This document shows positions 4,413-43,794 of a DNA stretch of 64,000 bases, piece after piece. A program made the translations under genes and the position numbers. This stretch comes from Thioalkalivibrio sulfidiphilus HL-EbGr7 (lineage in GTDB: Bacteria; Pseudomonadota; Gammaproteobacteria; Ectothiorhodospirales; Ectothiorhodospiraceae): the NCBI RefSeq assembly GCF_000021985.1, contig NC_011901.1:1860001-1924000 (forward strand), read 5' to 3'. Each line of letters starts with the position of its first letter. Within the stretch, counting starts at the first letter, position 1. The notes under the pieces were generated by a model, which worked only from the letters and a program-made list of their open reading frames with translations, had not been told where the DNA came from and searched no databases.

Positions 4413-4507
4413 GCTTTTCGCCCTGACAGGCCGGTTTTTCCCTCCCTTTTTAAATCAACAAGTTACGACTTAGTGCAACAAAAGTGCACGGAAGTGTACG
4501 ATACGAG

Positions 4508-4535
4508 TGCACACAGATTGCACACGGCTGCACAC
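4508..4535 (+). promoter_or_regulatory. Three helically phased TGCACAC repeats before the integrase
   Basis: TGCACAC occurs at 4508, 4519 and 4529, spaced 11 and 10 bp (about one helical turn), with a further TGCAC at 4485. They end 10 bp before the integrase start. Likely roles are arm-type sites for the integrase or excisionase, or an operator for the integrase gene. This is inference from spacing and position only. Confidence 0.4.
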
Positions 4536-4545
4536 GGAGGGGGGC

Positions 4546-7399: not shown

Positions 7400-10042
7400 T
7401 TAACTGAGTATTACTCTCGGCGCCCCTAGTGACAGATAGTCCCCTGGCCTGCATGTCAGCAGCAGGATCTGGTAGTGCTGCGCCGCCTGGGAAAGGATCA
7501 GCTTCATGCGTTCGAAGCGCTCCTGGTCTGAGTACACCAGGGCATCGTCCAGGATCACCATGGCGGGCTTTCCCTGCTCCACAAGCAGTTGAGCGAATGC
7601 CAGCCGGGTCAGGATCGCGAGCTGCTCACGTGTGCCTACACTGAGGCTTGAGAAAGGCTCCTTGAGGCCATCCCGGTCAAGAAACGCGATATCAAGGTCA
7701 TCCCCGAGCACGAGGCGATGGTCCGGAAATAAACGCCTGAGCAGTGGGGCCACGCGTTCCGAGATCGGCTGGAGGAAGTGATCACGGGCCTCCCCTTCTG
7801 CCTCAGAAAGGACCTGGTGTAGAAGTGAGATGGCACCAGCTTGTCTGTCGAGCGCTTCCGCACGCAAGCGAGTGGCATCCAGCCTTCCTTGCAGCTCCTG
7901 GCGTTTTTCACCCAGCCCCATGTGTCCCTGTCCCCGGAGTTCCCCGCGCAGCTCGGTGATTCTGGAATTGATCTGATTGTGCTGCTTCGTGAAGTTCTCA
8001 ATTGCACGTTCCGCAGTCGCAAGGTCTGACCTGACCGCCTCGGGATCCGCCTGTTCGAGGGCTGTTTTAGCCTTCTCGTGTGCCTCTTGGGCAGTAAGCA
8101 GGGTTTGCTCAGACGCATGAACCTTGTCGTGCAGTGACTCGTCGGGATGGTCAGAACGCGCTGACTGTAGGTCCCTGGTCAATCGATCGGCATCAGCCTG
8201 GTTGGCTTTCAGCGCCGCCTGGGCCTCGGCCAGTACACTCAGGATCCCTTCTCGCTGCTTACGCCCTTCATCAAGGAGAGATCTGGCCTCCATCTCCTCA
8301 CCTTCTGCGAGTCCCAGCTTTTCCTCTACCTCCCGTAATGCCCGGTCATCTACGGCACGCTGTTCGTCACCATGATCACCGAGTTGCTCACGAATGGCAG
8401 AGAGGCGGACTTCAAGCACGTCTATTCGCTCCCTGTGGGGATCAAGGCCATCTGGGGCGACCGCGCTTAGCCTGACCAGCTCGGTAGCAAGGCGGCTCTT
8501 GAGTTCCTGCTCTCGCCTCTCACGCTCCTCTGCTTCCGTGAGGCTCGCAACACTGAGCGTCTCGAGAGACTCTGAAAGCTCGCGTTCCAGCCTGTCCAAC
8601 TCAGCCAGGATCCCGCTGACATTCGCTCCACCTGGCGTGATGGTGAGCCTGCCCAGTTGCCCTAGGTTCAGGGTCTCCTGCTTGTAGATCTCGACCCGGG
8701 CATTTGGATCAAGGGTTTGACCCCCCATTTCCGCGGATCCATTCAGATCAAGGGCGAGGGTCGTGGCCAGTGCACTCCGCTTTGCCCGGGCATGATCAAT
8801 CTGACTGGATAAGGTCCTCAGTCTGTCGAGAGATTCCTTAGGTAGCTCAACAGAGGCGATGCGTCTTTTGGTATCCCGGATCTCTGCCTCCGCATCCTGG
8901 CCCTTCTGAAGCTGAGCCCGGAGTGATTCCAGCTGCACCTCGATATCCTTGGCATTACGCAGAGATTGCATCAGCCTCAGTACGCTTCTGGCGTCCTGCA
9001 CTGCAGTTTGTGCGTGCTCAGAATGCCCCTGCCGCTCGGCCACCTGAGAATCCAGGACTTCCAGCTCACGCGCGATTCGCGCAGTCGTTTCACGATGCTT
9101 TTCAAGGCTCTTCGCGTTGTCCTCGAGGGATTGAATCAGGCGCTGCCTGACATCCCATTGCTGCCGTGCTTGCTCGGCCTCGACTGCGGCGACCTTAAGT
9201 GCCTGCCCGGTTTGGTTGAACGTCTGCTCCAGGGATTCGAGCCCCTTCGCCGCATCACGGGCGACCTGCAGACGTTCCTGCAGATCCGCCATCCTGTCAG
9301 GATTAAACGGGCCTGAGAGTTCGAGATCGAGCTTTACGAGCTCGTCAAGCTTGTGGTCGAAGTCGCTCAATTGGCCGTCAATATTGCTTAGTTCCACCTC
9401 AACGAAGGCGACATCGTCATGCACCTGCTTGAGTTCGCCCTTTGGGCGTCCGGTTGGGGTGTAATAGCGGTCATAGGAGTCCTTGACACTGCTGATCAGC
9501 ATCTCGCTTTCAGGGCCTCCCAATACATCGCCCACCTGGGCTTCCAGGGCGGTACGCAAAGTCCGCTGACCTGACTCGTTGACGGGGATCGGCTGGAATG
9601 CACTGCCCTGCTGGACAAAAAGCATGCCCCAGATGCCCTGATGCTCCGGCTTGCTTGCCCCCCGCGCAGGAGAGGAATGACCCAGTAACTCCCTGAGCTG
9701 GTCCTCCGCAGCCTGCCCAGAGAAACTCCCGGTTGGCGTGGTCAGTTCCGCCGTCGGCTTCTGGCAGAAACCCTTCTCGATTCGATACAGACCCCCATTG
9801 AGCGAGAACTCCACGGAGACCTCGGGACGGACCGAGGACTCATAGGGTTGAAAACTCTCCGCGACCTCACCCGTCAGACTGTGTTTCTCGAACAGGGCCG
9901 CACGAACGGCCTCGAGCAATGTCGACTTCCCTTCCTCGTTATCCCCGGCAATGATGGTCAGTCCGTCTTCCAACCCCTCGATGCGTACTGGACCCTTCAG
10001 CTTTCGGAAGTGACTGACTTCTATGGATTTGATAACGAGCAC
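7400..10042 (-). CDS. Rad50/SbcC/YhaN-like SMC-family ATPase
   Basis: Large ATPase expected to pair with the phosphoesterase encoded just upstream and act on DNA ends. It is 880 aa from a GTG start. N-terminal Walker A is GDNEEGKST (residues 33-41); the ABC signature is SVGTREQL (about 801-808) and Walker B is VILDDALV (about 829). Between them lies a long, Glu/Arg/Leu-rich coiled coil from about 220 to 770. No CXXC zinc hook is present at the coiled-coil apex; the only cysteines seen are near residue 98 and in LLLTCRPG. That resembles YhaN-type rather than classical Rad50 proteins. The gene starts 3 bp after the stop of the phosphoesterase gene. It is the last gene of a five-gene leftward operon. 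Confidence 0.88.
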   Translation of the reverse strand: MLVIKSIEVSHFRKLKGPVRIEGLEDGLTIIAGDNEEGKSTLLEAVRAALFEKHSLTGEVAESFQPYESSVRPEVSVEFSLNGGLYRIEKGFCQKPTAELTTPTGSFSGQAAEDQLRELLGHSSPARGASKPEHQGIWGMLFVQQGSAFQPIPVNESGQRTLRTALEAQVGDVLGGPESEMLISSVKDSYDRYYTPTGRPKGELKQVHDDVAFVEVELSNIDGQLSDFDHKLDELVKLDLELSGPFNPDRMADLQERLQVARDAAKGLESLEQTFNQTGQALKVAAVEAEQARQQWDVRQRLIQSLEDNAKSLEKHRETTARIARELEVLDSQVAERQGHSEHAQTAVQDARSVLRLMQSLRNAKDIEVQLESLRAQLQKGQDAEAEIRDTKRRIASVELPKESLDRLRTLSSQIDHARAKRSALATTLALDLNGSAEMGGQTLDPNARVEIYKQETLNLGQLGRLTITPGGANVSGILAELDRLERELSESLETLSVASLTEAEERERREQELKSRLATELVRLSAVAPDGLDPHRERIDVLEVRLSAIREQLGDHGDEQRAVDDRALREVEEKLGLAEGEEMEARSLLDEGRKQREGILSVLAEAQAALKANQADADRLTRDLQSARSDHPDESLHDKVHASEQTLLTAQEAHEKAKTALEQADPEAVRSDLATAERAIENFTKQHNQINSRITELRGELRGQGHMGLGEKRQELQGRLDATRLRAEALDRQAGAISLLHQVLSEAEGEARDHFLQPISERVAPLLRRLFPDHRLVLGDDLDIAFLDRDGLKEPFSSLSVGTREQLAILTRLAFAQLLVEQGKPAMVILDDALVYSDQERFERMKLILSQAAQHYQILLLTCRPGDYLSLGAPRVILS

Positions 10043-10045
10043 GGA

Positions 10046-11179
10046 TCAGCCCCTTCCGGTCAGGGTCATGTATTCCACATACAGACGCTGCAACGCAGCA
10101 CCCGCCTGGGCTGACTTCCCGGGATCCGGATCCTTGGCCATGTCGCGCAACCGCTCGATGGCCCGGCTCACAAAACCGCTCGCGCCCATCCTGTCCAGAT
10201 CTTCTTCGCTGGGGGACACCAGTACCCCTGAGTCCGATGCGCGCAGGTAACGCAGTCTTGCACGCCAGGTATCCAGAAGCGCCTGCAACTCACCGTGCCC
10301 AGCAAGGTCCAGCGCCCCTCGAAGATCGAGCCTCAAGACGTGACGCTCAAAGGGCTGCCCCAGGGCAGCCAGATCCGCTTCCAGCAGTTTGATGTCATCC
10401 GAACCGTGGACCTCGTGACTCTTGTGAGACCATTGGTAGTGGGTGGTCTGGACCTTTTCAACACGTGGCGTGGCCCCCGGCCCATCAATCTCGACAAGCA
10501 GCACGTTCCCCGAGTCGTTATCGCGGAATCCGTCGGTTTCGTGGGTGCCTGCATACCAGGTCCGGTTGGCGATCTCGAGCGTGCCATGCCAATCCCCTAG
10601 GGCCAGGTACTCAAGCCCGGATTCATCGGCCCGACGGTCCGAGATGGGATTATGGAGCTCGGCAGAATCGGGAAGGCGGTTCTCGACGCTGCCATGGGCC
10701 AATCCGACTCGAACCGCCCCTTCCGGGCTCTCCATGGCAGTGAAACCTTCGGTGAGATCCCGAGCCTCATGACGCCGGGTAAGCGGTGCTGGCAGTACCG
10801 CGAGCTTGCGATCCTTGAGGATGACAGGCTCGAAATCCAGAAGAAGGCGCACATTACCAGGCAAGCCGATGCGGCTGAGTCGCGTCCAGGCACTCTCCTG
10901 GAGCGCCGCATCATGGTTGCCTGGGAGCAGTAGCCAGGGACCCGGATACCCGGACAGTGCGTCCATGGTCCGTCTCAGGGTTTCGTCAGAGACCGTGTTC
11001 ATCTCGAAGACGTCCCCCGCCACAAGCACGGCATCCACCTCACGGCCCCTGGCGAGTTCGGCAATACGTTTCACCGATTCCAGTCGCTGTGTCCGGATCA
11101 GCGCTCCCGCATCACCTTCGATCCATGAAAACTGCTTGCCGATCTGCCAGTCGGCCGTATGTAAGAGACGGATGCTCAC
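10046..11179 (-). CDS. Mre11/SbcD/YhaO-like metallophosphoesterase
   Basis: Calcineurin-like phosphoesterase, predicted nuclease partner of the Rad50-like ATPase that follows. It is 377 aa from a GTG start. Motif I is HTADWQIG, with Asp10 but Gln12 where SbcD/Mre11 usually have His. Motif II is AGDVFE (Asp56), motif III GNHD (88-90), motif IV AHGS (His162) and motif V LALGDWHG (195-198). The C-terminal 130 residues, with an Arg/Asp-rich segment, would be the ATPase-docking region. A Gln at motif I and GDWH at motif V are seen in YhaO-like exonuclease relatives, so activity is still plausible. It lies 19 bp after the zinc-ribbon gene. Confidence 0.88.
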   Translation of the reverse strand: MSIRLLHTADWQIGKQFSWIEGDAGALIRTQRLESVKRIAELARGREVDAVLVAGDVFEMNTVSDETLRRTMDALSGYPGPWLLLPGNHDAALQESAWTRLSRIGLPGNVRLLLDFEPVILKDRKLAVLPAPLTRRHEARDLTEGFTAMESPEGAVRVGLAHGSVENRLPDSAELHNPISDRRADESGLEYLALGDWHGTLEIANRTWYAGTHETDGFRDNDSGNVLLVEIDGPGATPRVEKVQTTHYQWSHKSHEVHGSDDIKLLEADLAALGQPFERHVLRLDLRGALDLAGHGELQALLDTWRARLRYLRASDSGVLVSPSEEDLDRMGASGFVSRAIERLRDMAKDPDPGKSAQAGAALQRLYVEYMTLTGRG

Positions 11180-11198
11180 CGATCACCCCTTCGATTTC

Positions 11199-11567
11199 TT
11201 ATTTATCATTATGTTGCGCTTTATGCGCGTTGATTTTGTGCTGAATCATCGTGGCCTCATCCTCGGTAAACACACCCAGCTCCTCCATGAGATCCAGGCT
11301 GAGTTCAGCACAACCAAGGGAAAGGCAATGACTGCAAGTGTCGCCATCTGAACCCGGGGGAACAAGCACCCAGCGCTTGGCGCACCAGTTGCAGGGTACT
11401 ATTCCATATGGCCTCAAAGCACGCGTTAGATCCTGGAGATTGACCCGGAGCACCTGGGACGCCTGAAAGTCATCAGGGTCGTTCCGTTCAACCAAAAGAT
11501 CACCCACTGTTTTGAACACCTCGTCATCAGCAGTAGGCCCTGAGCCGCCCTTGCCAGTGACACTCAT
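11199..11567 (-). CDS. Small zinc-ribbon protein of unknown function
   Basis: A 122-aa protein. The only recognisable element is a CX2C...CX2C zinc ribbon (CNWC, then CSHC, with a further Cys in LGC) around residues 60-85. The N-terminal half is a helical region (VFKTVGDLLVERNDP) and the C-terminus is helical and acidic. The gene starts within the stop of the 97-aa gene (ATGA overlap), so production is coupled. A role as an adaptor or nucleic-acid-binding subunit of the AAA/Mre11/Rad50 complex is inference from position only. Confidence 0.75.
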   Translation of the reverse strand: MSVTGKGGSGPTADDEVFKTVGDLLVERNDPDDFQASQVLRVNLQDLTRALRPYGIVPCNWCAKRWVLVPPGSDGDTCSHCLSLGCAELSLDLMEELGVFTEDEATMIQHKINAHKAQHNDK

Positions 11568-11857
11568 TCCCTGAACTCTACAATGACCATGTATTGCTCA
11601 AACCAGACATCGAGGACCGCATGGACCTGTCGCCAAAGGTCTTCTGACCAGTGGAATGTTCGCTCATCAACGCTCAACGTCATCACACCCTGATGCTGGC
11701 GGAAGTACCCAATGTTCAACTGCCGATATAACTCGAGACAGGAGTATCGGTCTGCGAATACATGAAGATGATCCACATTCCCTTCACTGTAGGTCAACGC
11801 CACTCGATCCCAGGCCGTGAAGGCGGATTTCCTGATGAGTCTGACCGAAGCTGTCAT
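11564..11857 (-). CDS. 97-aa protein of unknown function in the AAA/Mre11/Rad50 operon
   Basis: I do not recognise the family. The start at 11857 is chosen because GAGGGTGA precedes it at good spacing. The frame is open further upstream to 12103, and a start at 12019 would give about 151 aa, beginning 8 bases after the AAA gene stop. The protein is compact and aromatic-rich (DLWRQVHAVLDVWFEQYMVIVEF), suggesting a small alpha/beta subunit. It lies between the AAA+ ATPase gene and the zinc-ribbon gene and overlaps the latter by 4 bp. Confidence 0.65.
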   Translation of the reverse strand: MTASVRLIRKSAFTAWDRVALTYSEGNVDHLHVFADRYSCLELYRQLNIGYFRQHQGVMTLSVDERTFHWSEDLWRQVHAVLDVWFEQYMVIVEFRE

Positions 11858-12026
11858 TTGTTCACCCTCATTACGAGCCTGCGTTTTATTCATGAATGTT
11901 ATTATTTTGACAGCACAATCTGGATTCACATGTAATAATTCGAATCCACATCGGATCATGTAATTGATGCTTGGCTCTCGGTCGATTTGAATGCGCTTTT
12001 TCCGAGACCGGTACTCCATCGGCACA

Positions 12027-14156
12027 TCAAAGATGCGCAGAGAACCCGATCCCCCTACCCTTGTTTTCAGCCTTCTTCGAGGACTCCTGCTCCAATGCAG
12101 CACAGAGCGACTGGGGAGAGAGCTCGAGCCCAGTGATTCGCAGACGGCGTATCACTGCATGGAAGTCCCCGGGTGTGAGCGAATCCAGTCTTCCCAGCCT
12201 GCGCTCGATGAGCGAGTTAGTTTCACAAGCCTCTGATCCCAACTGATTGAGCACCTGGCAGAACAGTTTTCGCACCTGGCTGGCACTCATGCATTCAAAC
12301 CGCACCTTGACATCAAATCGGCGCATTGCTGCTTCATCCAGAAGACTCATGGCATTGGTGCATGCAATCAGGACACCCTTGAAGGCCTCGATCTGAACGA
12401 GCAGCTCATTGACCTGGGTGATCTCCCAGCTTCTGTGCGCCGCAGCCCTGGTCATGAGAAAACTGTCGACCTCATCGAGCAGGAGAACGGCACCTTCCTG
12501 TTCCGCCTCTTCGAAAACCGCGGCCAGGTTTTTCTCTGTACCACCGAGAAACTTGTCCAGGAGGTCAGAGGGCTTGCGTACGATCAGTGGTTTTTCGAGG
12601 GACTTGGCCAGATGCCGAGCAAGCTCCGTCTTCCCGGTACCCGGTGCCCCGTAAAACAGAATTCGTGCATCCTGCATGTCCGAAATACCCCGAGTCAGCG
12701 TAGTCGGGTCCACGTCGATGTTGATCACCTCCGGGTCATAGCTGATGACGGACTCTTTATCAGGGACCGTGGGTGCCTGATACCCCATGGCCTTGAGCAC
12801 ATTGCCGGTCAAACGCTTGTAAAGTTGCGCGGCTCCCGCCTCACCCGGATTAATTGCCTGGATTACGCGCACCGACTTCTCGATCAGGCCTGGGGTCAGG
12901 TGTGGGCTGTCCGGAACCCGGCCGATCCATCCGTTCGTCTCGATACCTTTTTCAGCGAGGAACTTGTTCAAGATCCGTTTGCGCATCGATTGACTTGGTT
13001 TCGGGATCTCAAGAACAAGGTCGAACCTGCGCAGATAGGCAAGGTCCAGATGATCGATATTGTTTCCTACCCAAAATGCGGGTCTCTTATTGGTCTCGAG
13101 TAGCCGGTTGATCCACGACTTTCGTCCCTTGGTTCGCATCCTCCTCGGACGCATCGAATCGAAAAAATCGGGTTGTGGAAAAACATCTTCCATCTCGTCA
13201 AAAAGAATCGCAGTATCAGATTTATTCTCAAGCAGCTTCTGACTGAAGAGGTAAGCCGAGAGCCGCTCTGCGGGAGCATAGACACCACCCTCTTTGTCCT
13301 GATCGGGCACCTCAAACAGGTCAATTCTCAGGGTGTTGCATATACAGCGCACAATCTGTGTTTTACCAACCCCGGGTGCTCCATAAAGCAGAATATTCAC
13401 GCCCGAGAGTCCATCACGGACTGCAGCCGACAGATACTCGCTCACGAGATCAAAACTGTCTGCATGCTCGGCGAAATCCTCCCGCACGAGGACTGACTCG
13501 GGCGCTCTATTGAGAAAAGTGTCCAGGACATCCAGCGAAGAGCTATGCGCGACGGATAACTTGTCGACCAGTTGCCCTGGTACGTTGAACTTTCTTTCCA
13601 GGGAGACCGGGTGCCCATCTGATTCGAGTAAGCCCGCGTTAATGAGAATCCCGTCAGACGACAGGGCGTTCTCGATTGCCTGGAGAGGCCTATTCAGAAT
13701 CACACTGAGAATTGAACAGGCACTTGCCATGTCCAGATTTTGGGGAGTGAGCTCAAGCGCGTCATTGAGCATTCTGGAGTATTTACAGAGAATGAAAAAT
13801 TCCAGTACTTCGCGCTCTGCTGCGTTAATGCCAAGCACTTCGACCAGTAGATCAATACCAAATCCAAGCGCGGTGGACTCTGGCACGAAGTCCAACTCCG
13901 CATCGAACAGTATGCTTTTCAATGCGGACAGGGTGATCTTCCCTGATTCGTCATTATCCATCTCCTCAACCAGATGTGGCGCGACGAAGTCCATGATAAA
14001 TCGCAGATTAACTCCGTATGACCTTCCACCCATCTGAAATCCATTCAAGTTTACAAGTATACGCAGGATCCATAGGCGGATCTGGGCGCGATACTGATCT
14101 TCAAGTGGCCCCTGACGGTACTTTCTGTGGCGAACCCTTTTACCCGATACCTTCAT
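12027..14156 (-). CDS. CDC48-like protein with two AAA+ ATPase domains
   Basis: Predicted ATP-driven unfoldase or remodeller, 709 aa. The N-terminal 220 residues are a novel helical domain. AAA domain 1 has Walker A GAPGVGKT (259-266) and Walker B ILFDEMED (317-324). AAA domain 2 has Walker A GAPGTGKT (503-510) and Walker B LLLDEVDS (558-565), followed by a RRFDVKVRF arginine-finger region. Both sites look intact. It is the first gene of the leftward five-gene operon, with GGGGGG upstream of its ATG. The palindromic operator at 14221-14239 lies 65 bp upstream, shared with the divergent WYL gene. Its substrate is unknown; loading or dismantling the Mre11/Rad50-like complex is one possibility. 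Confidence 0.88.
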   Translation of the reverse strand: MKVSGKRVRHRKYRQGPLEDQYRAQIRLWILRILVNLNGFQMGGRSYGVNLRFIMDFVAPHLVEEMDNDESGKITLSALKSILFDAELDFVPESTALGFGIDLLVEVLGINAAEREVLEFFILCKYSRMLNDALELTPQNLDMASACSILSVILNRPLQAIENALSSDGILINAGLLESDGHPVSLERKFNVPGQLVDKLSVAHSSSLDVLDTFLNRAPESVLVREDFAEHADSFDLVSEYLSAAVRDGLSGVNILLYGAPGVGKTQIVRCICNTLRIDLFEVPDQDKEGGVYAPAERLSAYLFSQKLLENKSDTAILFDEMEDVFPQPDFFDSMRPRRMRTKGRKSWINRLLETNKRPAFWVGNNIDHLDLAYLRRFDLVLEIPKPSQSMRKRILNKFLAEKGIETNGWIGRVPDSPHLTPGLIEKSVRVIQAINPGEAGAAQLYKRLTGNVLKAMGYQAPTVPDKESVISYDPEVINIDVDPTTLTRGISDMQDARILFYGAPGTGKTELARHLAKSLEKPLIVRKPSDLLDKFLGGTEKNLAAVFEEAEQEGAVLLLDEVDSFLMTRAAAHRSWEITQVNELLVQIEAFKGVLIACTNAMSLLDEAAMRRFDVKVRFECMSASQVRKLFCQVLNQLGSEACETNSLIERRLGRLDSLTPGDFHAVIRRLRITGLELSPQSLCAALEQESSKKAENKGRGIGFSAHL

Positions 14157-14220
14157 GTATACCCCCCGACCAAGTCTTCATTGCCCCGTCCTGCAACGGG
14201 ACCTTATAGTAAGGGTCGCA

Positions 14221-14239
14221 TGCGACACGCAATGTCGCA
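14221..14239. promoter_or_regulatory. Operator O1 (TGCGAC-N7-GTCGCA), AAA operon / WYL1 divergent promoter
   Basis: Perfect 6-bp arms TGCGAC and GTCGCA with a 7-bp spacer (ACGCAAT). It lies 65 bp from the AAA gene start and 42 bp from the WYL gene start. It overlaps a second palindrome, TCGCATGCGA at 14216-14225. The same geometry occurs at four other promoters in the window. The WYL regulator encoded next to it is the natural candidate binder. Confidence 0.8.
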
Positions 14240-14280
14240 TAAGGGGTTCAAGCTCTCGGCTTCGAGGACAGGGGGAAAGA

Positions 14281-15372
14281 ATGGCAAAGAGAAAGAAAGA
14301 GAATTACGAATTTGCCGAATTTCTGCGGATGTGGCATCTCCTTTCTACCCTGGAGACAGCACCAAGATTCAAGACCGTCCGCGACTTGAGCACGGCACTC
14401 GAGGCAGAGGGGTTGGAGGTCACGGATCGAACAATTCAGAGAATACTGAAGTTTTTCGAAATGCAGTTTGGGCTTGTTGGACGAAAGCGCACCACGGATC
14501 GCGGGCATCCCTACGAGTGGGCATGGCCCAGCGAGACGGGGCGCCCGACCATTGGCAACATGGACCCGGCAACAGCCATCACCTACGAAATGGCCGGTCA
14601 GTTGGCCAGCGCTGTCCTGCCCAGATCCGTACTCGCCACCATGGAGCCTGATTTCCGGCGTGCACGGATGGTCCTCTTGCAAAGCGGCGGCAAGGCACAG
14701 GCGTTATCGAGAAAGATTCGCATTCTCCCCCGCAGTGGCAGCCGATTACCTGCCGAAATCGCCCCACAGGTGCTCACTGGGATTCATGACGCCCTGATGC
14801 GCAATCGCAAGGCATTGATCACCTATCGGCCCGTCTCGACTCGCTCAAAGTCAGGAAAAATATGCGAGATATCCCCCCTGGGCATCGTGAGCCGATTTGA
14901 TACGTTGTATCTGATTCATGTGATTGACGAAGTAGGGAACGACATAGACAAGGAGAAGGTTATGGCCTGGCCAATGCATAGGTTCACAGCCGTCCGGGTC
15001 ATAGAAGGAGATGTCGCGCGTGCGCCAGAGGGTTTTGATCTGGACAAGTACATTCGTTCACCTGACTTTCTGGGCGCCCCGCCGGTCGACTCTCTCAGGG
15101 AGATTGGTGCCACCTTCAAGCTCAAGATCCTGGCAAAGCCCCACACTGCCAAATACATTCAGGAAAGGCCGTTCGGTGATGATCAGATGGTCAAAAAGAC
15201 CCGCGACGGTCGGGTCAGAATCGAGGCCACAGTGAACAACACCCGAGATCTGCTCACGCAACTCCATGATTTCGCGGATGATATCGAGGTGCTCTCACCC
15301 AAGGAATACAGAGCCTATTTCAAGGAACTCTCCACCAAGCTCTCAAAGATTTATTCCTCGCATTATCAATGA
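14281..15372 (+). CDS. WYL-domain transcriptional regulator (WYL1)
   Basis: A 363-aa DeoR/YafY-like regulator with an N-terminal winged helix (about residues 5-75; VRDLSTALEAEGLEVTDRTIQRIL), a central WYL domain (about 150-240; ITYRPVSTRSKSGK, then ISPLGIVSRFDTLYLIHV) and a C-terminal WCX-type extension. This architecture matches defence-associated repressors of the BrxR/CapW type, which bind inverted repeats and are thought to respond to a ligand or damage signal through WYL. The start is preceded by GGGGGAAAG. It is divergent from the AAA operon, with operator O1 between them. It is clearly paralogous to the WYL gene at 42710, sharing EGFDLDKYI/GNFDLDAYL and the same layout. Confidence 0.92.
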   Translation: MAKRKKENYEFAEFLRMWHLLSTLETAPRFKTVRDLSTALEAEGLEVTDRTIQRILKFFEMQFGLVGRKRTTDRGHPYEWAWPSETGRPTIGNMDPATAITYEMAGQLASAVLPRSVLATMEPDFRRARMVLLQSGGKAQALSRKIRILPRSGSRLPAEIAPQVLTGIHDALMRNRKALITYRPVSTRSKSGKICEISPLGIVSRFDTLYLIHVIDEVGNDIDKEKVMAWPMHRFTAVRVIEGDVARAPEGFDLDKYIRSPDFLGAPPVDSLREIGATFKLKILAKPHTAKYIQERPFGDDQMVKKTRDGRVRIEATVNNTRDLLTQLHDFADDIEVLSPKEYRAYFKELSTKLSKIYSSHYQ

Positions 15373-15400
15373 CATAAAGGACCGACTAAGCGCGCTCTTT

Positions 15401-15419
15401 TGCGACATTTGGCGTCGCC
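15401..15419. promoter_or_regulatory. Operator O2 (TGCGAC-N7-GTCGCC) before the 93-aa gene
   Basis: One mismatch from the consensus arms (last base C rather than A), spacer ATTTGGC. It starts 66 bp upstream of the 93-aa gene and lies after the WYL1 stop. It suggests that the lrr-like and nuclease genes downstream have their own regulated promoter. Confidence 0.65.
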
Positions 15420-15466
15420 GTCATGCCTGATAATACCCCTGTTCCAGACAAGACGGGGGTCAGTAG

Positions 15467-15748
15467 ATGGATCAGGAGAAAAACGATCATCAGGTCAGAC
15501 AATGGGTCTCTGCACTGCTTTGGTTACAGTACAAAGGTTCACGATGGGTCAAGACAGAATCAGGTAAATACATAACTGTTCGGTTCGATAAGGAACAAAG
15601 AAAGGAGTGGTTCGACAAAATTCCAGAGGAATATCGCAAAATCGTCAGATCAGTAGCTATCAAGGAAAAGAAACGTTTTACTGAACTACAGAAAAAGACT
15701 GGTAAGAAGTACTGCGATTTCATGATCAAAGAGAAAATTCAGTTGTGA
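15467..15748 (+). CDS. Small basic protein of unknown function (93 aa)
   Basis: I do not recognise the family. The 93 residues are very Lys/Arg-rich (KEKKRFTELQKKTGKK) with several Trp/Tyr in the N-terminal half (WVSALLWLQYKGSRWVK). The gene is distinctly AT-richer than its neighbours, hinting at a different origin. It follows operator O2. Its stop overlaps the GTG start of the next gene (GTGA), so the LRR-like protein is probably made by coupled translation. Possible roles include nucleic-acid binding or an adaptor; neither is shown. Confidence 0.65.
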   Translation: MDQEKNDHQVRQWVSALLWLQYKGSRWVKTESGKYITVRFDKEQRKEWFDKIPEEYRKIVRSVAIKEKKRFTELQKKTGKKYCDFMIKEKIQL

Positions 15749-16578
15749 GTACACACACGAACAGTTTTACGGGTAAGGAACTCGAGGGTAACACCGCCAG
15801 GGAGTTGGCGGTGTTACCCGGTGTTCTTCATCTGAATTACTGCTCAATCACCCTGTCGGCAGCGCAGGCGCTTGCCTCATCCAGTGCCGAGACAATTGAG
15901 TTCACAGAACTGCCACTGATGAACGATGCATGTGTGAGTCTCGTATTAGAGATGGCAGAACATGTAAAGCTGTCGATCGGGAGAATTTGGGGTGCATCCG
16001 AATATCTCGGACGAATGGAGCGCATGAACCTAATATTGCTATCCAGGTATGCAGAGAGTGTGAACCTCGAAGGGATATCAGATTTAAGTCACCAAGAAGC
16101 TGATGTACTGAGTGCATTTCAGGGCCACCAGCTATTGCTACATCTGGACCGGCTGGATGAAGTGACAGCTGCCCACCTGTCCAGGGTGCGAACAGAGTTG
16201 CTGATGCTTGAGGTCCCTCGTCTGTGTGATGACGCTGCCACCGCGCTATCCAGATCCCTCGCCAGTGAGGAGCTGCAGATCAGCGTCAGCGAGGATTCGG
16301 TCTCCGTAAAGGCTGCTGACGAACTGTCACAATATGGTGGGCATGCTCTCTCTATAGAACTGGGGATTGAACCCAGCCCTGATATCTTAAGGATGCTCGC
16401 CCAATTCACCGGGCATTTACGTATCACGGTTCCCAGACTGACAGCAGAAGCCGCTATGGCGGTTGGGAATTCAAATGGGACGCTCGAGCTGCACTGCGAA
16501 ACACCCACGCCGGATATCAGACAGATCCTACTGAATTCCAAGCGTGAAATAACCAATCTTGATGAACTGACCGGCTGA
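15745..16578 (+). CDS. Leucine-rich-repeat-like protein (277 aa)
   Basis: No known family was recognised, but the sequence has a repeated pattern of short beta-like strands followed by an amphipathic helix (LHLNYCSITLSAAQALA, then IEFTELPLMNDACVSLV, LLLHLDRLDEVTAAHLS, LEVPRLCDDAATALSRSL, LRITVPRLTAEAAMAV). The period is roughly 20-45 residues, which resembles a degenerate leucine-rich repeat solenoid. Such a fold would suit recognition of a partner protein. There is no signal peptide or membrane segment. The start is a GTG overlapping the previous stop. It lies between the 93-aa gene and the Cas4-like nuclease gene in a rightward operon. Confidence 0.7.
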   Translation: MSTHTNSFTGKELEGNTARELAVLPGVLHLNYCSITLSAAQALASSSAETIEFTELPLMNDACVSLVLEMAEHVKLSIGRIWGASEYLGRMERMNLILLSRYAESVNLEGISDLSHQEADVLSAFQGHQLLLHLDRLDEVTAAHLSRVRTELLMLEVPRLCDDAATALSRSLASEELQISVSEDSVSVKAADELSQYGGHALSIELGIEPSPDILRMLAQFTGHLRITVPRLTAEAAMAVGNSNGTLELHCETPTPDIRQILLNSKREITNLDELTG

Positions 16579-16629
16579 GCCGAGTAAATGTTTCAAAGCA
16601 TGAGCGACAGGATAACCGAGGAGAGAGCA

Positions 16630-17334
16630 ATGGACCTATCCAGAACCGCGATTGAGCAATACCTGCGTTGCCCCCAGTGCTTCTACATGGAGCGTCGTCG
16701 TGGGGTCAAGTCATTGAAGATGGTCCCGCTCACCCTGGCGGTGGCGACAGATGCCCTGCTCAAGAACGAGTTCGATGCGGTACGACCCACCGGGGCAATG
16801 CATCCTTTGTGGGAGCGCGAGGGGCTCAATGTCAGGGCCTGCAATCACGAACAGATGGATTCCTGGCGCAGCAATCGACACGGCGTCCGGGTGCAGCGAT
16901 CAGATGGTGCCGTAGTCTTCGGTGCGGTTGATGACATCTGGGAAGATCGAGAGACCGGAGAGCTCCACGTTGTGGACTACAAGTCCACCTCCAAGAAAGG
17001 CGTTCCCGATATTGACTCGGGATTCGGGGATTCCTACAAGCGCCAGGCAGAGATCTATCAGTGGCTGCTGCGCCAGTCGGGATTCACTATCAGCCCTGTG
17101 GCCTATTTCCTATATGTGAATGGCAGCAAGGAAGGTGGCTTCTACGATGAGGGCCTTCAGGGCCGCATGCGCTTTGAGACAACGCTGATACCCTACGAAG
17201 GGGATGACAGCTGGGTCGGACAGGCTGTGGACGAGGCCATTGAGTGCCTGGAGCAGGATCTTGTTCCTGATGCGGGTTCTGAGTGTGATGTTTGCCGTTA
17301 TCTTCGGGAACGCACGAATGCAGTGTTGACATGA
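16630..17334 (+). CDS. Cas4/RecB-like PD-(D/E)XK nuclease with probable Fe-S cluster
   Basis: Predicted DNA exonuclease, 234 aa. The start at 16630 is preceded by GGAGAGAG; upstream in-frame ATGs at 16588 and 16600 lack a comparable site. Nuclease core: Asp101 in GAVDDIWED, Asp116-Tyr-Lys118 in VVDYKST and a RecB-type QAEIYQWLL (about 139-147). Four cysteines sit as in Cas4: Cys14 and Cys17 (RCPQC) and Cys219 and Cys222 (CDVC), consistent with a 4Fe-4S cluster. It is not next to cas1, so a role in CRISPR adaptation is unlikely. As the last gene of the WYL1 arm it is better seen as the nuclease of that module. Confidence 0.85.
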   Translation: MDLSRTAIEQYLRCPQCFYMERRRGVKSLKMVPLTLAVATDALLKNEFDAVRPTGAMHPLWEREGLNVRACNHEQMDSWRSNRHGVRVQRSDGAVVFGAVDDIWEDRETGELHVVDYKSTSKKGVPDIDSGFGDSYKRQAEIYQWLLRQSGFTISPVAYFLYVNGSKEGGFYDEGLQGRMRFETTLIPYEGDDSWVGQAVDEAIECLEQDLVPDAGSECDVCRYLRERTNAVLT

Positions 17335-18411: not shown

Positions 18412-19065
18412 CTAAAAGAGACAAGGCTGTCGTTGTTCATGATGGCCTATCAAACCATCCTCAGGAATAGCCTTAATCGACTCACCAAACAGCATGAAGT
18501 TTTTAATTTCTAACGGAGCAACCATCTTAAGCCGCTCTTCATCATCGTTTCTGTACAGCTCCCGAAGCTCCATCAACAACCTGCCCAGCACATTCTGCCC
18601 GACCAGGATCTCACCATCATCATCGATCACCTTTGCACCCCAGAAAGCGTCCTTCTTCGACTGCTCCACGATTTCCTTGTCTTTTGTCACCAGAAGCCAC
18701 CGACCAAACTCCTTGTAGTTCTGCGCCAGCTTCACACGAAGACACCACCGCATTACGCCAACTCGCACTTGATCCCAGTCTGGACGTGAATCCTTCCGAT
18801 GGGGTTTGCTTTTCATCTTTGCGGCTATTGGGCTTTTTTGATCGATGATGACCCTCTGAACTTCAGGGAGGTGCGGGAATCGACAGGCTTGATAGAGCGC
18901 TTCCGACGTGAGAATCCGTACACAATTAACCCGAAGGGGATATCCAGATGCCATATTTGACAGAGCACCGAAGGTCTCTTTGGTTTTGTAAAACACCGCC
19001 GATTCCTTTCGATGGTAGGTGCGAACTTCACTGTCCAGCTCATCAAGCGAAATTTCATAGCTCAT
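18412..19065 (-). CDS. NADAR (YbiA-like) family protein
   Basis: NADAR proteins are N-glycosidases acting on ADP-ribose or riboflavin-pathway intermediates, and some act as antitoxins that remove ADP-ribose from guanine in DNA. The 217-aa sequence has the family's signature elements: FGALSNMASGYPL (like F-x-x-LSNF), LTSEALYQACRFP (like SxEHxYQAxK), RVGVMRWCLRVKLAQN and KDAFWGAK (like D-x-x-WGxG). A C-terminal tail of about 50 residues is not typical. GGAGG precedes the ATG. Operator O3 lies 75 bp upstream. With the following 320-aa gene it makes a two-gene operon that may be a toxin-antitoxin or base-modification defence pair. Confidence 0.8.
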   Translation of the reverse strand: MSYEISLDELDSEVRTYHRKESAVFYKTKETFGALSNMASGYPLRVNCVRILTSEALYQACRFPHLPEVQRVIIDQKSPIAAKMKSKPHRKDSRPDWDQVRVGVMRWCLRVKLAQNYKEFGRWLLVTKDKEIVEQSKKDAFWGAKVIDDDGEILVGQNVLGRLLMELRELYRNDDEERLKMVAPLEIKNFMLFGESIKAIPEDGLIGHHEQRQPCLF

Positions 19066-19140: not shown

Positions 19141-19159
19141 TACGACACCATGCGTCGCA
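19141..19159. promoter_or_regulatory. Operator O3 (TACGAC-N7-GTCGCA) before the NADAR gene
   Basis: On the minus strand it reads TGCGACGCATGGTGTCGTA, differing from O5 at only four positions of 19. It lies in the 123-bp gap between the NERD-helicase stop and the NADAR start, 75 bp from the latter. It brings the NADAR pair into the putative WYL regulon. Confidence 0.65.
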
Positions 19160-39180: not shown

Positions 39181-42100
39181 TCAATGGCGAGCGCGGAGCT
39201 GATCGGAGTATGACTTCAGCCAGCACAAGGTATTGACCAACTCCATCTCCGTGACACTCTTGCAGGGCACGTTCAGCAAGGCAGGATTTGCCACCACCAC
39301 AGCCAGACAGCGGGCACGGGAGATGGCCACATTCAGCCGGTTTCGGCTGAAAAGGAAATCCGCGTTGCGGGGCATGTTGTCGGCGTCAGAGGTCGCCATG
39401 GAGATCAACACAGCCTCGGCCTCCTGCCCCTGGAACTTGTCCACGGTGCCGACCCTGGCCCCAGGCGGAAGCCTGCCTTTAAGCAGGTTCACCTGGATGT
39501 TGTAGGGCGAGATCACGAGGATGTTCTCCTGCCTCATCGGGTGCTCCTTGCCGTGCTTGTCTACGTAACTCTGCTTGAGCAGGCTCTGGTACATGGCCTC
39601 AATTACATCCGCCTCTTCCGGGCACTGCTGACCGCGATCCGAATGCATCACCTCGACCATGCGGATTCCGTTAGGGACCAGCTCCGGGTGAGCCGTGGAG
39701 CTGAGCATCAGGCGCTGCTTGTGATTATCCTCATGGGGCATGAGACAACCGGCATAGATGGCGTCCGAGATGAACTGACACACATCGGGATGCATGCGCC
39801 GGGTGGTTTCCAGGAAGACACCCCGCTCCGGCTCGATCACCGAACGCCCGTTCAGCAGATAGTCCAGGGCCGAGTCGCCCGAGTGGCCCGGATGCGATCC
39901 CTGGATCGGTTGGGAGAGCTGCATCTGATCGCCGAGCAATACCAGGTTCCGCGCACTGGTCCCCATGGCCACCAGGTTGGCCAGTGACACCTGCCCTGCC
40001 TCATCAATGAAGAGGTAATCAAAGCGCTGATCCAGGCCCTCCCGGGCAAACAGCCATGCCGTCCCAGCCACCAGTTGATAGTCCTCATCGCTCTCGATGT
40101 CAGGATTGGAAGTACAGGCCTCGATCTGGTGCCCCTCAAAACCCAGATCGTTCTTCTGGGTGGTCTTTTTCACGCCCCTGAACGCCACACCTTCTTTCTG
40201 GGCCACCTTTTCCACGGCCTCGAGCAGGTTGTCGATCGCCTTGTGACTGTTCGAGGTCACGCCGATGCGGAACCCCTTGCGCAGCAGGGCGACAATCAGG
40301 TGGGAGCCGGTGTAGGTCTTGCCCGCACCCGGCGGCCCCTGGATGTACAGGTGACTGCCATCCAGCCGTTCCACGGCATCGAGAATCTGAGCCAGATGGC
40401 CATGGGGCGCCAGCGGCTCAGGGGCCTCCCTGCCCTTCAGACGCGGGGGCTTACGGGTGAGGAAGGCATCGAGCGCTGGGTAACAGGCCTTTTTCGCAAG
40501 ATGCGCATCGGCGTAGCGGAACAACGCCTCGCTCAGCACCCGGGTTTCGACAGGACCACCTGGCCCGATCGAAAGACTCTCGGGGATCTCGGCGAAGGTT
40601 GTCCTGATCGTAACGGTGCCATTTTCGTCATCCAGCGAACGAATCGTCCCCAGACGATCACTTGATTCAGCCACGTGAACCACATCGCCAGCCTTGAGTT
40701 TGGTCTCCTGGGGCGGGAACCGATAGACGCAATCCATTGACTTGGTGGTGGCTTTTTCTGTCGACACGAGTTCAAGGCCGCCGAGGCACTCTGAATCCTC
40801 GATCAGATCAGCGGTTTCCATATCCTGACGGGCAAACATGGCCCACCACTGGGGCTTCGCCTCTCGGCGATGGAAGTCCAGCAACTGATAGATCAACGTG
40901 TTGTGATGGAGGGTCTCGGGATCTTCCGCCTTGTTGCCCAGAAGGGCCTTTTCATATCGGGCCAGACGTTGTTCATGCTCGGTGATCCTATCCACCCCCT
41001 CGGACTCCCCCCGCACCTCCCCGCTGAACCAGGGTAGATTGGAAGGACGGAGCCCAAGGAGCCAGTCCCGGAGCAGGAGCGTGGAACGGCAGTCATCCTC
41101 GTTGTACTTGCGGATTTGTTCCAGCAGGTCGTCGTCCCGGCTCTCGCGCCAGTGTTCATACCAGACGATACTACCCACGGCCGTTTTGACGTCCGCATCA
41201 CGGGCATCCATGTAGAAATGCTCAAGATTTTTGATGGAGTAGGATGGCTCTGAGACACGGATCGACTCCCGAACCACCTTGAAAAGGTCCACGAAACGCT
41301 CGCGACGCAGCAGATCATCCACCTCCCGTTCACGGGTGGCGTAGCGACTCATGAGGCGCTTGATCGCGGTCACCTCATAGTGGTTGTAGTGGTAGATGTG
41401 GGCATCCGGATACTGCTTCAGTCGCTCGACAACGAAATCGACGAAATCTTCCAGGGCCTTCTTCTCGGCATCGTGATCATGGGCCCAGAACGCGGTGAAT
41501 CGCCACTCCCCGTTCTCCAGGTAATAGACACCGAAGAGGTACTCAAGCCCCTCCGGATAGAGCGGGTCGCCCTCCATGTCAAAGAAGAGATCGCCCTCCG
41601 ACGGTTCAGGCATCCGGAAGAAACCTTTTCGGCCATCTGGATCCTGCTTTAAAAGACGGTAGACCGGTTTGCCGGAAGTCCTGCCCTGGACCTGAAGGGA
41701 GGCCTGTTCACGAAGCCGCTCCAGGACCTCTTTGTTCATGCCAGAAATAGCTACAGACTGATCGTGGCCTGCGAGGTCGGCCACCGTATGGATACCTGCA
41801 TCCCGCAACTTGCGGATCTGGCCTTTAGTGATATTGGCAACGAGGCTCAGATGATCCTCAACTTCCCACTGCTTTTCACAGCGCTCATGCCAGTGGCAGA
41901 AGTTGCAGAAATCACAGGGTTCCGGCCGGGTTTCTGTCGGGTTCTCAATAAAGCCGAGGAATTGATCCCGAGATCGGGCGTAGTAATGCCGATAGTCCTC
42001 AACCCGGAAACTGCGGCTCTCGCCATTGCCAAGTGCCAGGTGCATAGACTCTGGCACTGTTCCCTGGGCGTCCTGCAGCAGATCAGAATAGACACATAGC

Positions 42101-42610: not shown

Positions 42611-42629
42611 TGCGACATAATACGTCGCT
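42611..42629. promoter_or_regulatory. Operator O4 (TGCGAC-N7-GTCGCT) between TM0106-type gene and WYL2
   Basis: Arms TGCGAC and GTCGCT with a 7-bp spacer (ATAATAC); 5 of 6 arm positions pair. It starts 74 bp from the nuclease-helicase gene and ends 81 bp from the WYL2 start. On the minus strand GCGACGTATTATGTCGCA differs from O5 at one base over that span, which is strong evidence of a shared binder. Confidence 0.75.
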
Positions 42630-42709
42630 AAAAAAGACCTCACTGACTCGCTTTCCGATACACTGCGCCCGCACCGACCTTGAAGCCTCCCGGCAGAGGA
42701 GATACCACG

Positions 42710-43708: not shown

Positions 43709-43734
43709 TTCTCACGTCCGGCTGGGGCTCGTTA

Positions 43735-43753
43735 TGCGACGCATTATGTCGCA
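43735..43753. promoter_or_regulatory. Operator O5 (TGCGAC-N7-GTCGCA) before the phosphatase gene
   Basis: Perfect arms TGCGAC and GTCGCA with spacer GCATTAT, ending 41 bp before the phosphatase ATG and 27 bp after the WYL2 stop. Together with O1 this is the best match to the consensus. Confidence 0.8.
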
Positions 43754-43794
43754 CCACGGACGTAATCTTCCTGCACCCAGGAGGATTGGCCCAA

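Follow-up and report, generated by a model that had tools for sequence, protein, structure and literature searches.

Nine open reading frames (ORFs) lie in two divergent arms within the 64,000-nucleotide stretch of DNA analyzed here (the window), adjoining a tRNA-Asn and an integrase-like ORF (Table 1). This layout, taken from the ORF listing, agrees with the original prediction, which described one defense module made of all nine genes. The few-base junctions claimed for most places were found in most of the left arm (-4, 19 and 3 bp), but a gap of 169 bp separates the AAA+ gene from the 97-aa gene. The surroundings, with type I restriction, AbiE and CRISPR (Cmr-type) genes, were confirmed, and the segment is set in a defense island. 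GC content is 0.59 to 0.61 in the Rad50-like and Mre11-like genes and 0.51 to 0.56 in the others, save the 93-aa gene (0.39), a spread that was counted in favor of a mosaic composition. As had been proposed, the combination corresponded to no named system among the matches listed in profile searches, and four of the nine proteins had no homolog in the searches made.

Table 1. Genes and putative operator sites in the window.
Feature	Position	Strand	Basis
Rad50/YhaN-like ABC ATPase with coiled coil; pairs with the Mre11-like gene	7400..10042	-	PF13476 over cut-off
Mre11-like phosphoesterase, GDWH subfamily	10046..11179	-	PF00149; TIGR00619 below cut-off
122-aa protein, CxxC...CxxC (zinc-ribbon-like), orphan	11199..11567	-	Motif visible
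97-aa orphan protein	11564..11857	-	No homolog in profile searches or loci compared
p97/Cdc48-like double AAA+ ATPase	12027..14156	-	Pfam, predicted model, motif conservation
Exact operator TGCGACA-N5-TGTCGCA, between AAA and WYL	14221..14239	.	Motif search
WYL-WCX transcriptional regulator	14281..15372	+	Pfam; N-terminal HTH inferred
Operator near-copy, 2 mismatches, upstream of 93-aa, LRR and Cas4-like genes	15401..15419	.	Motif search
93-aa basic orphan protein	15467..15748	+	Only sub-cut-off, chance-like matches
Leucine-rich-repeat (LRR) protein, ~11 repeats, orphan by sequence	15745..16578	+	Single-sequence AF2 model, VIA
Cas4-like PD-(D/E)XK nuclease, 4-Cys cluster	16588..17334	+	PF12705; 12 relatives
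NADAR-domain protein	18412..19065	-	PF08719, 6.1e-25
Operator near-copy, 2 mismatches, ~85 bp upstream of NADAR	19141..19159	.	Motif search
TM0106-type RecB-like nuclease/helicase	39181..42537	-	Clusters with TM0106 RecB-like records; PF13482, AAA_12
Operator near-copy, 2 mismatches, divergent RecB-like/WYL2 intergenic region	42611..42629	.	Motif search
Second WYL-WCX regulator (WYL2), same family as the first	42680..43708	+	Pfam, clustering
Rhodanese-phosphatase-type (HCx5R) protein	43603..44367	+	28% identity (158 columns) with the phosphatase portion of an ARG-phosphatase fusion
Operator near-copy, 1 mismatch, just past WYL2, before likely phosphatase start	43735..43753	.	Motif search

The predicted tandem AAA+ protein was borne out by a match to PF00004 (2.3e-37, Pfam), by a p97-like predicted model (p97 matched over 440 residues, Z 19.0, rmsd 7.4) and by Walker A, Walker B and Arg-finger positions that were invariant in both domains among 27 aligned sequences. 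Like p97/Cdc48 it has two AAA+ domains whose Walker and Arg-finger residues are intact, but it is bacterial, is encoded beside a WYL gene and has a helical N-terminal region of ~200 aa that falls outside the p97 structure matches. Its predicted function is drawn from the fold alone. The family was present in 30 of 398 Pseudomonadota genomes, its own included. IetAS is a gene pair composed of the ATPase IetA and the subtilisin-like IetS. The second AAA+ domain resembled IetA (7.5e-47, PADLOC), but the protein's 145 bits fall far short of the 510 required for IteA, and no subtilase or S8 peptidase was among the Pfam matches listed for the 24 window genes scanned; an IetAS identity was not supported.

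The YhaO/Mre11-like and YhaN/Rad50-like assignments were upheld by the domain matches in Table 1. The pair resembles SbcCD/Mre11-Rad50 in joining a phosphoesterase to an adjacent coiled-coil ABC ATPase and in retaining the GNHD motif. It differs in that GDWH replaced GHxH in 19 of 19 sequences compared and DxQ replaced DxH in 15 of 19; the window protein itself has DWQ and GDWH rather than the canonical metal ligands DxH and GHxH, and its TIGR00619 score (45.1 of 77.65 bits) is below the SbcD cut-off. The Mre11-like protein was found in 16 of 398 genomes, its own included, and the two genes were adjacent in 22 of 23 Mre11 loci. A Rad50/SMC-like ATPase is also a feature of Lamassu, and the window protein matched LmuB weakly (6.1e-11), but the gene beside it encodes an Mre11-like partner and not LmuA or LmuC, as given in the portions of PMC10586767 drawn on here. 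LmuA was absent from the best 25 of 52 families for the Rad50-like protein; LmuA effectors are diverse.

The 122-aa protein, put forward as a zinc-ribbon protein, does display the CxxC...CxxC motif but matched nothing in the library, and neither library searches nor the loci compared yielded a homolog. The 93-aa protein likewise had no homolog in the loci compared. The LRR protein had no Pfam match and no sequence homolog in the searches or loci compared. Its single-sequence AF2 model (best pLDDT 72, the other four models 32 to 58) alternates strand and helix in tandem repeats of 20 to 30 aa, and the best VIA matches were LRR proteins (NLRP9, Z 14.8, rmsd 4.4 over 270 residues), in agreement with the LRR-like assignment; plain Foldseek was ambiguous, returning nothing at E<=0.001 and mixing TIM barrels with LRRs. 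Here too, function is suggested by the fold alone. The Cas4-like Fe-S nuclease was corroborated by PF12705 and by near-invariant Cys28, Cys31, Cys233 and Cys236 among 12 sequences. Like Cas4, it combines a PD-(D/E)XK domain with CxxC motifs at the N and C termini, but its TIGR00372 score (30.3 of 65 bits) is below the cut-off. Its gene lies between the LRR gene and an ORF of 320 aa.

The regulator matched both PF13280 and PF25583 over their cut-offs (Pfam), as expected for the WYL protein that had been proposed. No HTH model scored over its cut-off, and an N-terminal HTH is presumed; nor was there a sequence match in the PDB at E<=0.1. A start at 14281 is more likely than one at 14155. WYL and AAA genes were paired in 25 of 61 other AAA loci, while a WYL gene was present in only 2 of 23 Mre11 loci (p=0.003). 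In 14 loci, not counting the window, WYL lay <=400 bp from AAA; 36 of the 61 AAA loci had no WYL gene in the flanks covered, and 13 of the 61 were shorter than 11 kb. The WYL repressor BrxR has operator half-sites spaced by 5 nt, according to the portions of PMC9122589 used here. The window regulator shares its WYL-WCX layout, and the adjoining pseudo-palindrome has the same spacing; one relative of the window WYL adjoins BREX genes and carries the operator, but the window WYL is predicted to control non-BREX genes.

A single palindromic operator had been described between the arms. The exact palindrome is there, with a TATAGT hexamer 10 nt upstream in the WYL orientation, but it is not the only site: a near-copy lies between the WYL and 93-aa genes, and three more lie beyond the nine genes. 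Palindromes with arms >=8 arose in 3.1% of 2000 single-base shuffles, and the site at 14221 is by itself only mildly improbable; it is the recurrence of the palindrome, rather than its chance probability, that carries weight. The genome contains 10 sites with <=2 mismatches, five of them in the window, and two with <=1 mismatch, both in the window; since the motif was first seen here, this test is partly post hoc, and 4 of 9 remain once the seed site is removed.

In the other AAA loci, 949,708 bases in total, 46 sites had <=2 mismatches; the reversed pattern gave 4, and permuted palindromes (up to 30) gave a mean of 4.3 and a maximum of 15. A site lay close to the start of AAA in 20 of these 61 loci (mean 0.2, maximum 3, for up to 25 permuted controls); the remaining 41 had no such site near AAA. 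WYL genes were present in 15 of the 20 loci with an operator versus 10 of the 41 without (p=0.0002). After dereplication at 60% identity, 13 of 41 AAA clusters had the operator and all 13 carried a WYL gene, which was found in 22 of the 41 clusters overall. Across the 398 genomes the tie was weak, with the exact motif in 7 of 30 AAA genomes versus 36 of 368 others (p=0.03). When operators were sought first, WYL genes adjoined the site in three other genomes, in one of them beside BREX genes. Because a score scan returned 48 sites in 31 loci versus 1 to 20 for ten permuted matrices, assignments of single genes to the regulon may be due to chance. The proposed WYL control of the segment is supported, and WYL dimers are predicted to bind the site. 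The Mre11 and Rad50 genes lack an operator of their own and are included in the predicted regulon because of presumed read-through across the 169-bp gap.

Operator-like sites at other loci preceded ARG, Sir2, RtcB, exonuclease, NERD-helicase and FtsZ-like genes, and the context of the AAA/WYL core pointed most strongly to ADP-ribose/NAD and RNA repair (ARG, Sir2, RtcB, NADAR). Pfam scans recognized no ARG gene among the window genes they covered; homologous loci contain ARG. Among the components given in section 3.8 of Iyer et al. 2022 (PMC9503650) are WYL regulators, R-P phosphatases, NADAR and restriction-fold effectors. The window holds a WYL regulator, NADAR and an R-P phosphatase, the last by weak similarity only; the phosphatase had no Pfam match at 0.001, and its ORF probably starts later, after 43753. 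The likeness to these ARG-centered, WYL/Nudix-regulated systems extends to restriction-fold nucleases and to a conserved core with swapped accessories, but AAA/CDC48 is nowhere in the paper's main text and the parts drawn on here describe no common operator. We interpret the segment as conflict genes forming one WYL regulon, with kinship to the ADP-ribose-linked systems predicted in that paper; the mechanism given below is putative.

The nine genes did not co-occur in order in the sample of unrelated genomes: none of the seven proteins besides AAA and WYL occurred in any of the 61 other AAA loci, and the 23 Mre11 and 12 Cas4-like loci contained no full-length AAA relative. No other locus sampled combined the Mre11/Rad50 pair with the AAA core, and at the genome level AAA and Mre11-like proteins shared two genomes, their own included, a chance-like overlap (P=0.34). 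The recurrent associations were the pairs AAA-WYL and Mre11-Rad50. A conserved nine-gene module was not supported; within this sample the outcome was the one that the original prediction had named as refuting it. One of the Cas4-like loci, from Bacteroidia (L063), contains a single-AAA ATPase, a divergent distant WYL and a Cas4-like gene second after WYL. This layout, in the same order, counts against a purely accidental link between the right arm and an AAA/WYL pair; L063 had no operator with <=3 mismatches, and AAA, WYL and Cas4-like genes may represent an older association in diverged form.

The segment is probably a mosaic in a defense island at tRNA-Asn, its parts joined by regulation rather than common ancestry around a core of p97/Cdc48-like double AAA+ unfoldase and WYL repressor. 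The sequence itself shows the architecture, the lack of the left-arm partners in the sampled AAA loci, and one putative operator that recurs upstream of both arms, NADAR, RecB-like/WYL2 and the phosphatase and, in other families, close to homologs of the AAA gene. Downstream of AAA in this genome lie an Mre11/Rad50-like pair that travels separately and two small orphan genes; the orphan 93-aa gene, the LRR protein and the Cas4-like nuclease make up the other arm. WYL dimers on the operator would keep the regulon off until a ligand made in infection (nucleic-acid ends or ADP-ribose products) freed WYL. The AAA+ ring could then unfold or extract proteins that are modified or bound to DNA. Exposed DNA ends could be processed by Mre11/Rad50 and the Cas4-like nuclease, and NADAR and the phosphatase could remove ADP-ribose marks, with the LRR protein as sensor or scaffold. 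A DNA-end-directed role of the segment is a plausible inference.

A single dedicated machine built of all nine genes for DNA-end-directed defense now seems unlikely. The close spacing of most left-arm genes, the operator common to both arms, the L063 layout with its similar AAA and WYL-x-Cas4-like order, and the plausibility of nuclease, Mre11/Rad50 and unfoldase as an end-processing set would suit it, but the failure of all except AAA and WYL to recur in AAA loci, the lack of full-length AAA in Mre11 and Cas4-like loci, and the four proteins for which these searches gave no homolog speak against it. A possible alternative, though short of probable, is a variant of the ARG-centered systems of Iyer et al. 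2022 that would serve chiefly to reverse RNA damage and ADP-ribosylation made by phages or toxins, with DNA nucleases as add-on effectors. It is favored by operators before NADAR and the phosphatase, by operator-like sites ahead of ARG, Sir2 and RtcB at other loci and by the gene types of section 3.8, and disfavored by the lack of a recognized ARG among the window genes scanned, by the absence of AAA/CDC48 from that main text and by an ARG/phosphatase cluster member in only 6 of 61 AAA loci. This alternative overlaps our preferred explanation and differs from it in the main target.

Substitution of the Mre11/Rad50-like pair for SbcCD in housekeeping DNA repair, with no defense role, is improbable. 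Its own genome has no SbcD-model match outside this gene, as such a substitution would predict, but the pair was not found in 57 other relatives searched, sits in an integrase-flanked island and elsewhere adjoins DUF4297/HerA, SIR2 plus HerA-like ATPase, RecB-like and DUF3320/DUF4011-helicase genes on plasmids. Still less credible is that the palindrome serves an unrelated transcription factor and merely coincides with WYL genes: 27 of 29 operator-first loci had no WYL within ~1.5-kb flanks, but every operator-bearing AAA cluster carried one, the operator adjoined WYL genes in two genomes with no AAA match at 1e-70, and the half-site spacing is that of BrxR in the portions of PMC9122589 used. 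A mosaic joined by regulation is a more likely reading of the locus than a nine-part machine.

More tentatively, a WYL regulon in several Pseudomonadota classes, recognizable by its TGCGACA-N5-TGTCGCA boxes, might couple a bacterial p97/Cdc48-like unfoldase core to interchangeable NADAR, ARG, Sir2, RtcB, Mre11/Rad50-like, Cas4-like and even BREX components. The unfoldase would pull ADP-ribosylated or DNA-stuck proteins off nucleic acids for nucleases and de-modifying enzymes, an analog in infection of p97 clearing DNA-protein adducts. If WYL reads the operator, the site would offer a sequence handle for co-regulated defense genes that adjacency misses, and would provide one defined binding site with which to probe what WYL repressors sense. 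On that condition the operator would tie together genes nearly 30 kb apart here, and elsewhere an AAA+ core with ADP-ribose, RNA-repair and BREX genes.

The genome carrying the window is a single contig of 3.46 Mb, on which the window occupies positions 1,860,001-1,924,000, and one flank of the island is marked by a tRNA-Asn and an integrase-like ORF. Type I restriction genes, AbiE and a CRISPR locus of the Cmr type were all present in the island, bearing out its predicted defence character. The nine ORFs that the original prediction had joined into one new defence module under a single palindromic operator were found where it had placed them. The left arm encodes an AAA+ protein (709 aa), a 97-aa protein, a 122-aa protein with a CxxC...CxxC pattern, a Mre11-like protein (377 aa) and a Rad50-like protein (880 aa); the right arm encodes a WYL regulator, a 93-aa protein, a putative LRR protein (277 aa) and a Cas4-like protein (248 aa). 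Family scans with PADLOC, Pfam and NCBIfam concurred with the AAA, phosphoesterase, Rad50-like, WYL and PD-(D/E)XK assignments. Among the matches listed, every system match from these collections was generic or below cut-off, in line with the earlier failure to recognize a named system, and identity with such a system was dropped. The zinc-ribbon-like, 97-aa, 93-aa and LRR proteins (P0004, P0005, P0007 and P0008) had no meaningful homologue in the collections searched, which differed between the four. GC content was 0.59-0.61 for the Rad50-like and Mre11-like genes, 0.51-0.54 for the zinc-ribbon, 97-aa, AAA, WYL and LRR genes, 0.56 for the Cas4-like gene and 0.39 for the 93-aa gene. ORF calling was mechanical and at times picked overlapping reading frames or over-long starts, and a promoter and terminator scan gave counts no better than chance. 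The transposase ORF beside the left arm is a possible trace of its assembly. The island also holds a 320-aa protein that matched neither Pfam nor PHROG, a protein of the uracil-DNA-glycosylase superfamily and an ORF with an OGG-like match below cut-off.

Features of the window and of comparison loci (L-numbers), with coordinates counted within each
Feature	Sequence	Coordinates	Strand	Context
Integrase-like ORF	window	4507-5631		assigned from its own sequence
IS3-type-looking transposase ORF	window	6151-7002		adjoins end of Rad50-like gene
Operator	window	14221		between AAA and WYL
Operator	window	15401		before 93-aa, LRR and Cas4-like genes
320-aa protein	window	17362-18324		between Cas4-like gene and NADAR
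Operator	window	19141		before NADAR
NERD-UvrD-type helicase	window	19189-21048		
DUF4011/MTES_1575 helicase-nuclease	window	21132-25859		
Uracil-DNA-glycosylase-superfamily protein	window	36882-37703		in island
Operator	window	42611		between RecB-like and WYL2
WYL2-phosphatase locus	window	42611-44367		
WYL2, second WYL regulator	window	42680-43708		divergent from RecB-like gene
Operator	window	43735		between WYL2 and phosphatase; phosphatase start uncertain, mechanical ORF opens before site
OGG-like glycosylase match, sub-cut-off	window	44774-45559		in island
FtsZ/tubulin-like protein	L183	4178-5290		directly 3' of operator copy
FtsZ/tubulin-like protein	L122	2001-2600		directly 3' of operator copy
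FtsZ/tubulin-like protein	L186	2233-2811		directly 3' of operator copy
VasI-like/BrxA/BrxB/BrxC cluster	L188	587-8268		exact operator before cluster
Single-AAA ATPase	L063	6206-7834	-	
Distant WYL	L063	7919-8932	+	divergent from ATPase
Cas4-like gene	L063	10037-10708	+	343-aa ORF between WYL and Cas4-like gene

The predicted operator was indeed located between the AAA and WYL genes, as TGCGACA-CGCAA-TGTCGCA, but it was not the only one, as four further sites with at most two mismatches lie in the window. By itself the palindrome at 14221 is mildly improbable, arms of at least 8 arising in 3.1% of shuffles. At three or fewer mismatches the window holds nine sites against 3.5 expected, a number reached by 0 of 100 shuffles. 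All five sites at the stricter threshold are intergenic or at gene starts, and they make up half of the 10 places found in the whole genome (8 for the reversed control pattern); two of them, and no other place in the genome, have one mismatch or none. A binomial estimate of 1e-8 for this clustering is indicative only, because the motif was derived from one of the counted sites. A TATAGT hexamer lies 10 nt before the sites at 14221 and 42611, in each case oriented toward the respective WYL gene. The second of these sites opens an ADP-ribose-type conflict locus within the same island, in which WYL2, with its own operator copies, is divergent from a RecB-like nuclease and is followed by a putative rhodanese-type phosphatase.

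Conservation of the operator was examined in 61 other AAA loci, which contained 46 sites at two or fewer mismatches; the reversed pattern gave 4, and up to 30 permuted palindromes averaged 4.3 (maximum 15). No clear excess was detected in the Mre11 or Cas4 loci, with 3 sites in the former (permuted mean 1.9) and 1 in the latter (permuted mean 0.7). A site was found near the AAA start in 20/61 loci (permuted mean 0.2, maximum 3), and 11 of 24 such sites preceded the ORF start by 42-58 bp; the negative distances are probably due to ORFs called too long. Since some genomes supplied two or three AAA loci, these were dereplicated to 41 clusters, with a site in 13 and a WYL gene in 22, including all 13 site-bearing clusters. 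The half-site was refined to TGCG(A/T)CA. The exact form TGCGWCA-N5-TGWCGCA occurred in 43/398 genomes (reversed control, 17/398) and was weakly tied to genomes with the AAA gene (7/30 versus 36/368, p=0.03). When 29 loci from the operator-bearing genomes other than this one were approached from the operator, WYL genes were present within flanks of about 1.5 kb in two. Among eight chosen regions that were widened, a hand-picked subset, WYL genes were present in three, two of them already counted and the third beside VasI-like, BrxA, BrxB and BrxC genes. Upstream of the VasI-like/BrxA/BrxB/BrxC cluster of L188 lies a WYL gene of the same family as that of the window (P0006).

To assess co-occurrence of the nine genes, every one of their proteins was searched for, with a profile or as a single sequence, in 61 AAA loci (8 of them on plasmids, 53 in genomes), 23 Mre11-like loci (8 on plasmids, 15 in genomes) and 12 Cas4-like loci (1 on a plasmid). 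The plasmid samples were 8 of 1193 AAA-matching and 8 of 132 Mre11-matching records; 19 regions were fetched around the stronger AAA matches, leaving aside weaker fragments and many housekeeping AAA matches. The Mre11-like, Rad50-like, Cas4-like, zinc-ribbon, 97-aa, 93-aa and LRR proteins were found in 0/61 AAA loci. Conversely, the AAA profile matched 1/23 Mre11 loci, through a short match in a 130-aa ORF of L095, and 3/12 Cas4-like loci (a weak match of 559 aa in L054, and ATPases of 489 aa in L064 and 542 aa in L063 that match one AAA domain, with a profile built without them); none was a full-length relative. WYL genes were present in 25/61 AAA, 2/23 Mre11 and 2/12 Cas4-like loci, and a Rad50-like gene in 22/23 Mre11 loci. 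Across a panel of 398 genomes, the AAA gene was present in 30, the Mre11-like gene in 16 and both in two (P=0.34): the genome studied here and G495, in which the two genes are on separate contigs. From these counts, AAA with WYL and Mre11 with Rad50 are recurrent pairs whose union was met only in the window. AAA relatives were also found on viral contigs, at no fewer than 42 loci, with two long matches among those listed (E 2e-61 and 8e-55).

On this evidence the reading of the nine genes as one dedicated module was rejected and is now considered improbable. Our estimate for it was nevertheless raised slightly on account of L063, a Bacteroidia MAG contig whose gene order resembles the AAA, WYL, 93-aa, LRR and Cas4 arrangement of the window. 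Both AAA domains of the window ATPase (P0001) align to the same stretch of the L063 ATPase; the L063 WYL protein just matches the WYL profile (2e-10) and has no BLASTP similarity to P0006, and no operator copy was found there at three or fewer mismatches. This layout may reflect an older association or convergence and, as one of 12 cases, is not decisive. We favour, as somewhat probable, the reading that this segment is a mosaic defence island combined with a WYL/operator regulon; our confidence was lowered slightly because L063 speaks against a purely accidental right arm. The original observation holds in part: the nine-gene module reading is unsupported, and the WYL/operator reading emerges stronger than it had appeared at first.

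The Cas4-like family (P0009) has relatives in MAGs, Patescibacteria among them, and on one plasmid; several of the Patescibacteria MAGs (L055-L060) carry it at about 40% identity. P0009 matched a PHROG of unknown function (9.2e-15), and the idea that it is a gene of a sequenced phage was dropped given its absence from the phage collection.

The content of the putative regulon was examined by scanning 20 chosen proteins, of which 7 had no Pfam family, and 10 more, of which 3 had no match. The genes that follow scored sites in the AAA loci include those for Sir2, ADP-ribosylglycohydrolases (some fused to a phosphatase, some not), RtcB, an exonuclease of the RNase_T type, a Fic protein, a calcineurin-like phosphoesterase and FtsZ-like proteins; a NERD-UvrD helicase downstream of a scored site has the domain make-up of the window helicase. 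Single assignments may be due to chance, because some scored sites carry at least three mismatches and permuted matrices also score (1-20 sites versus 48 for the real matrix). In three loci, an FtsZ/tubulin-like protein is encoded directly 3' of an operator copy.

Iyer et al. 2022 (PMC9503650) predict ARG-centred host systems that counter viral ADP-ribosylation; their repressors are of the WYL or Nudix type, and they also include R-P phosphatases, NADAR/Macro and restriction-fold effectors. AAA and CDC48 are absent from the main text of that paper, whereas an AAA+ core is a feature here. BrxR is described in PMC9122589 as a WYL repressor whose half-sites are spaced by 5 nt. WYL-regulated conflict islands are known; no description of this gene combination, of the predicted operator or of the AAA+ core was found in the literature searched, and we do not claim their absence from print.

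The genes, their common predicted operator and its conservation are read directly from the sequences; the detailed enzyme roles are much less certain than the mosaic-plus-regulon reading itself. In such a regulon, WYL would repress the genes and be released during infection. The AAA+ ring would serve as an unfoldase, the Mre11/Rad50-like pair and the Cas4-like nuclease would act on DNA ends, NADAR and the phosphatase would act on ADP-ribose marks, and the LRR protein may be a sensor or scaffold.

The Mre11-like protein (P0002) scores under the SbcD cut-off, and the SbcD model responds nowhere else in the genome. In an alignment of P0002 with relatives from 18 of the 23 loci (five were lost through ORF picking), GNHD was kept and GDWH replaced the canonical GHxH in 19/19 sequences; motif I was DxQ in 15/19 and DxH in 4/19. 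Canonical residues were seen on alignment to a solved Mre11/SbcD-type exonuclease. YhaO keeps GHxH. The family was found in 16/398 Pseudomonadota genomes, including this one, and in 0/57 other relatives searched. Its plasmid neighbours include DUF4297/HerA, SIR2 with a HerA-like ATPase, DUF3320/DUF4011-type helicases and RecB-like nucleases. In L085 and L097, relatives of the window's DUF4011/MTES_1575 helicase-nuclease directly adjoin the Mre11/Rad50-like pair, so that a functional link between the two is possible in the window as well.

A structure model of the AAA protein built from 23 sequences (pLDDT 82) matched p97 and Cdc48; the best match over both rings was 7lmz (Z 19.0, rmsd 7.4, 440 residues), with single-ring matches reaching Z 19.6. 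The LRR protein was modelled from its single sequence (best pLDDT 72; the other four models were lower), and Foldseek by itself was ambiguous. A second look with VIA placed NLRP9 at the top (Z 14.8 over 270 residues), followed by ribonuclease inhibitor and F-box LRR proteins at Z of about 13, bearing in mind that for repeat proteins a Z below about 13 can reflect a common arrangement. The predicted LRR assignment of P0008 is accepted with moderate confidence from the model and these matches.
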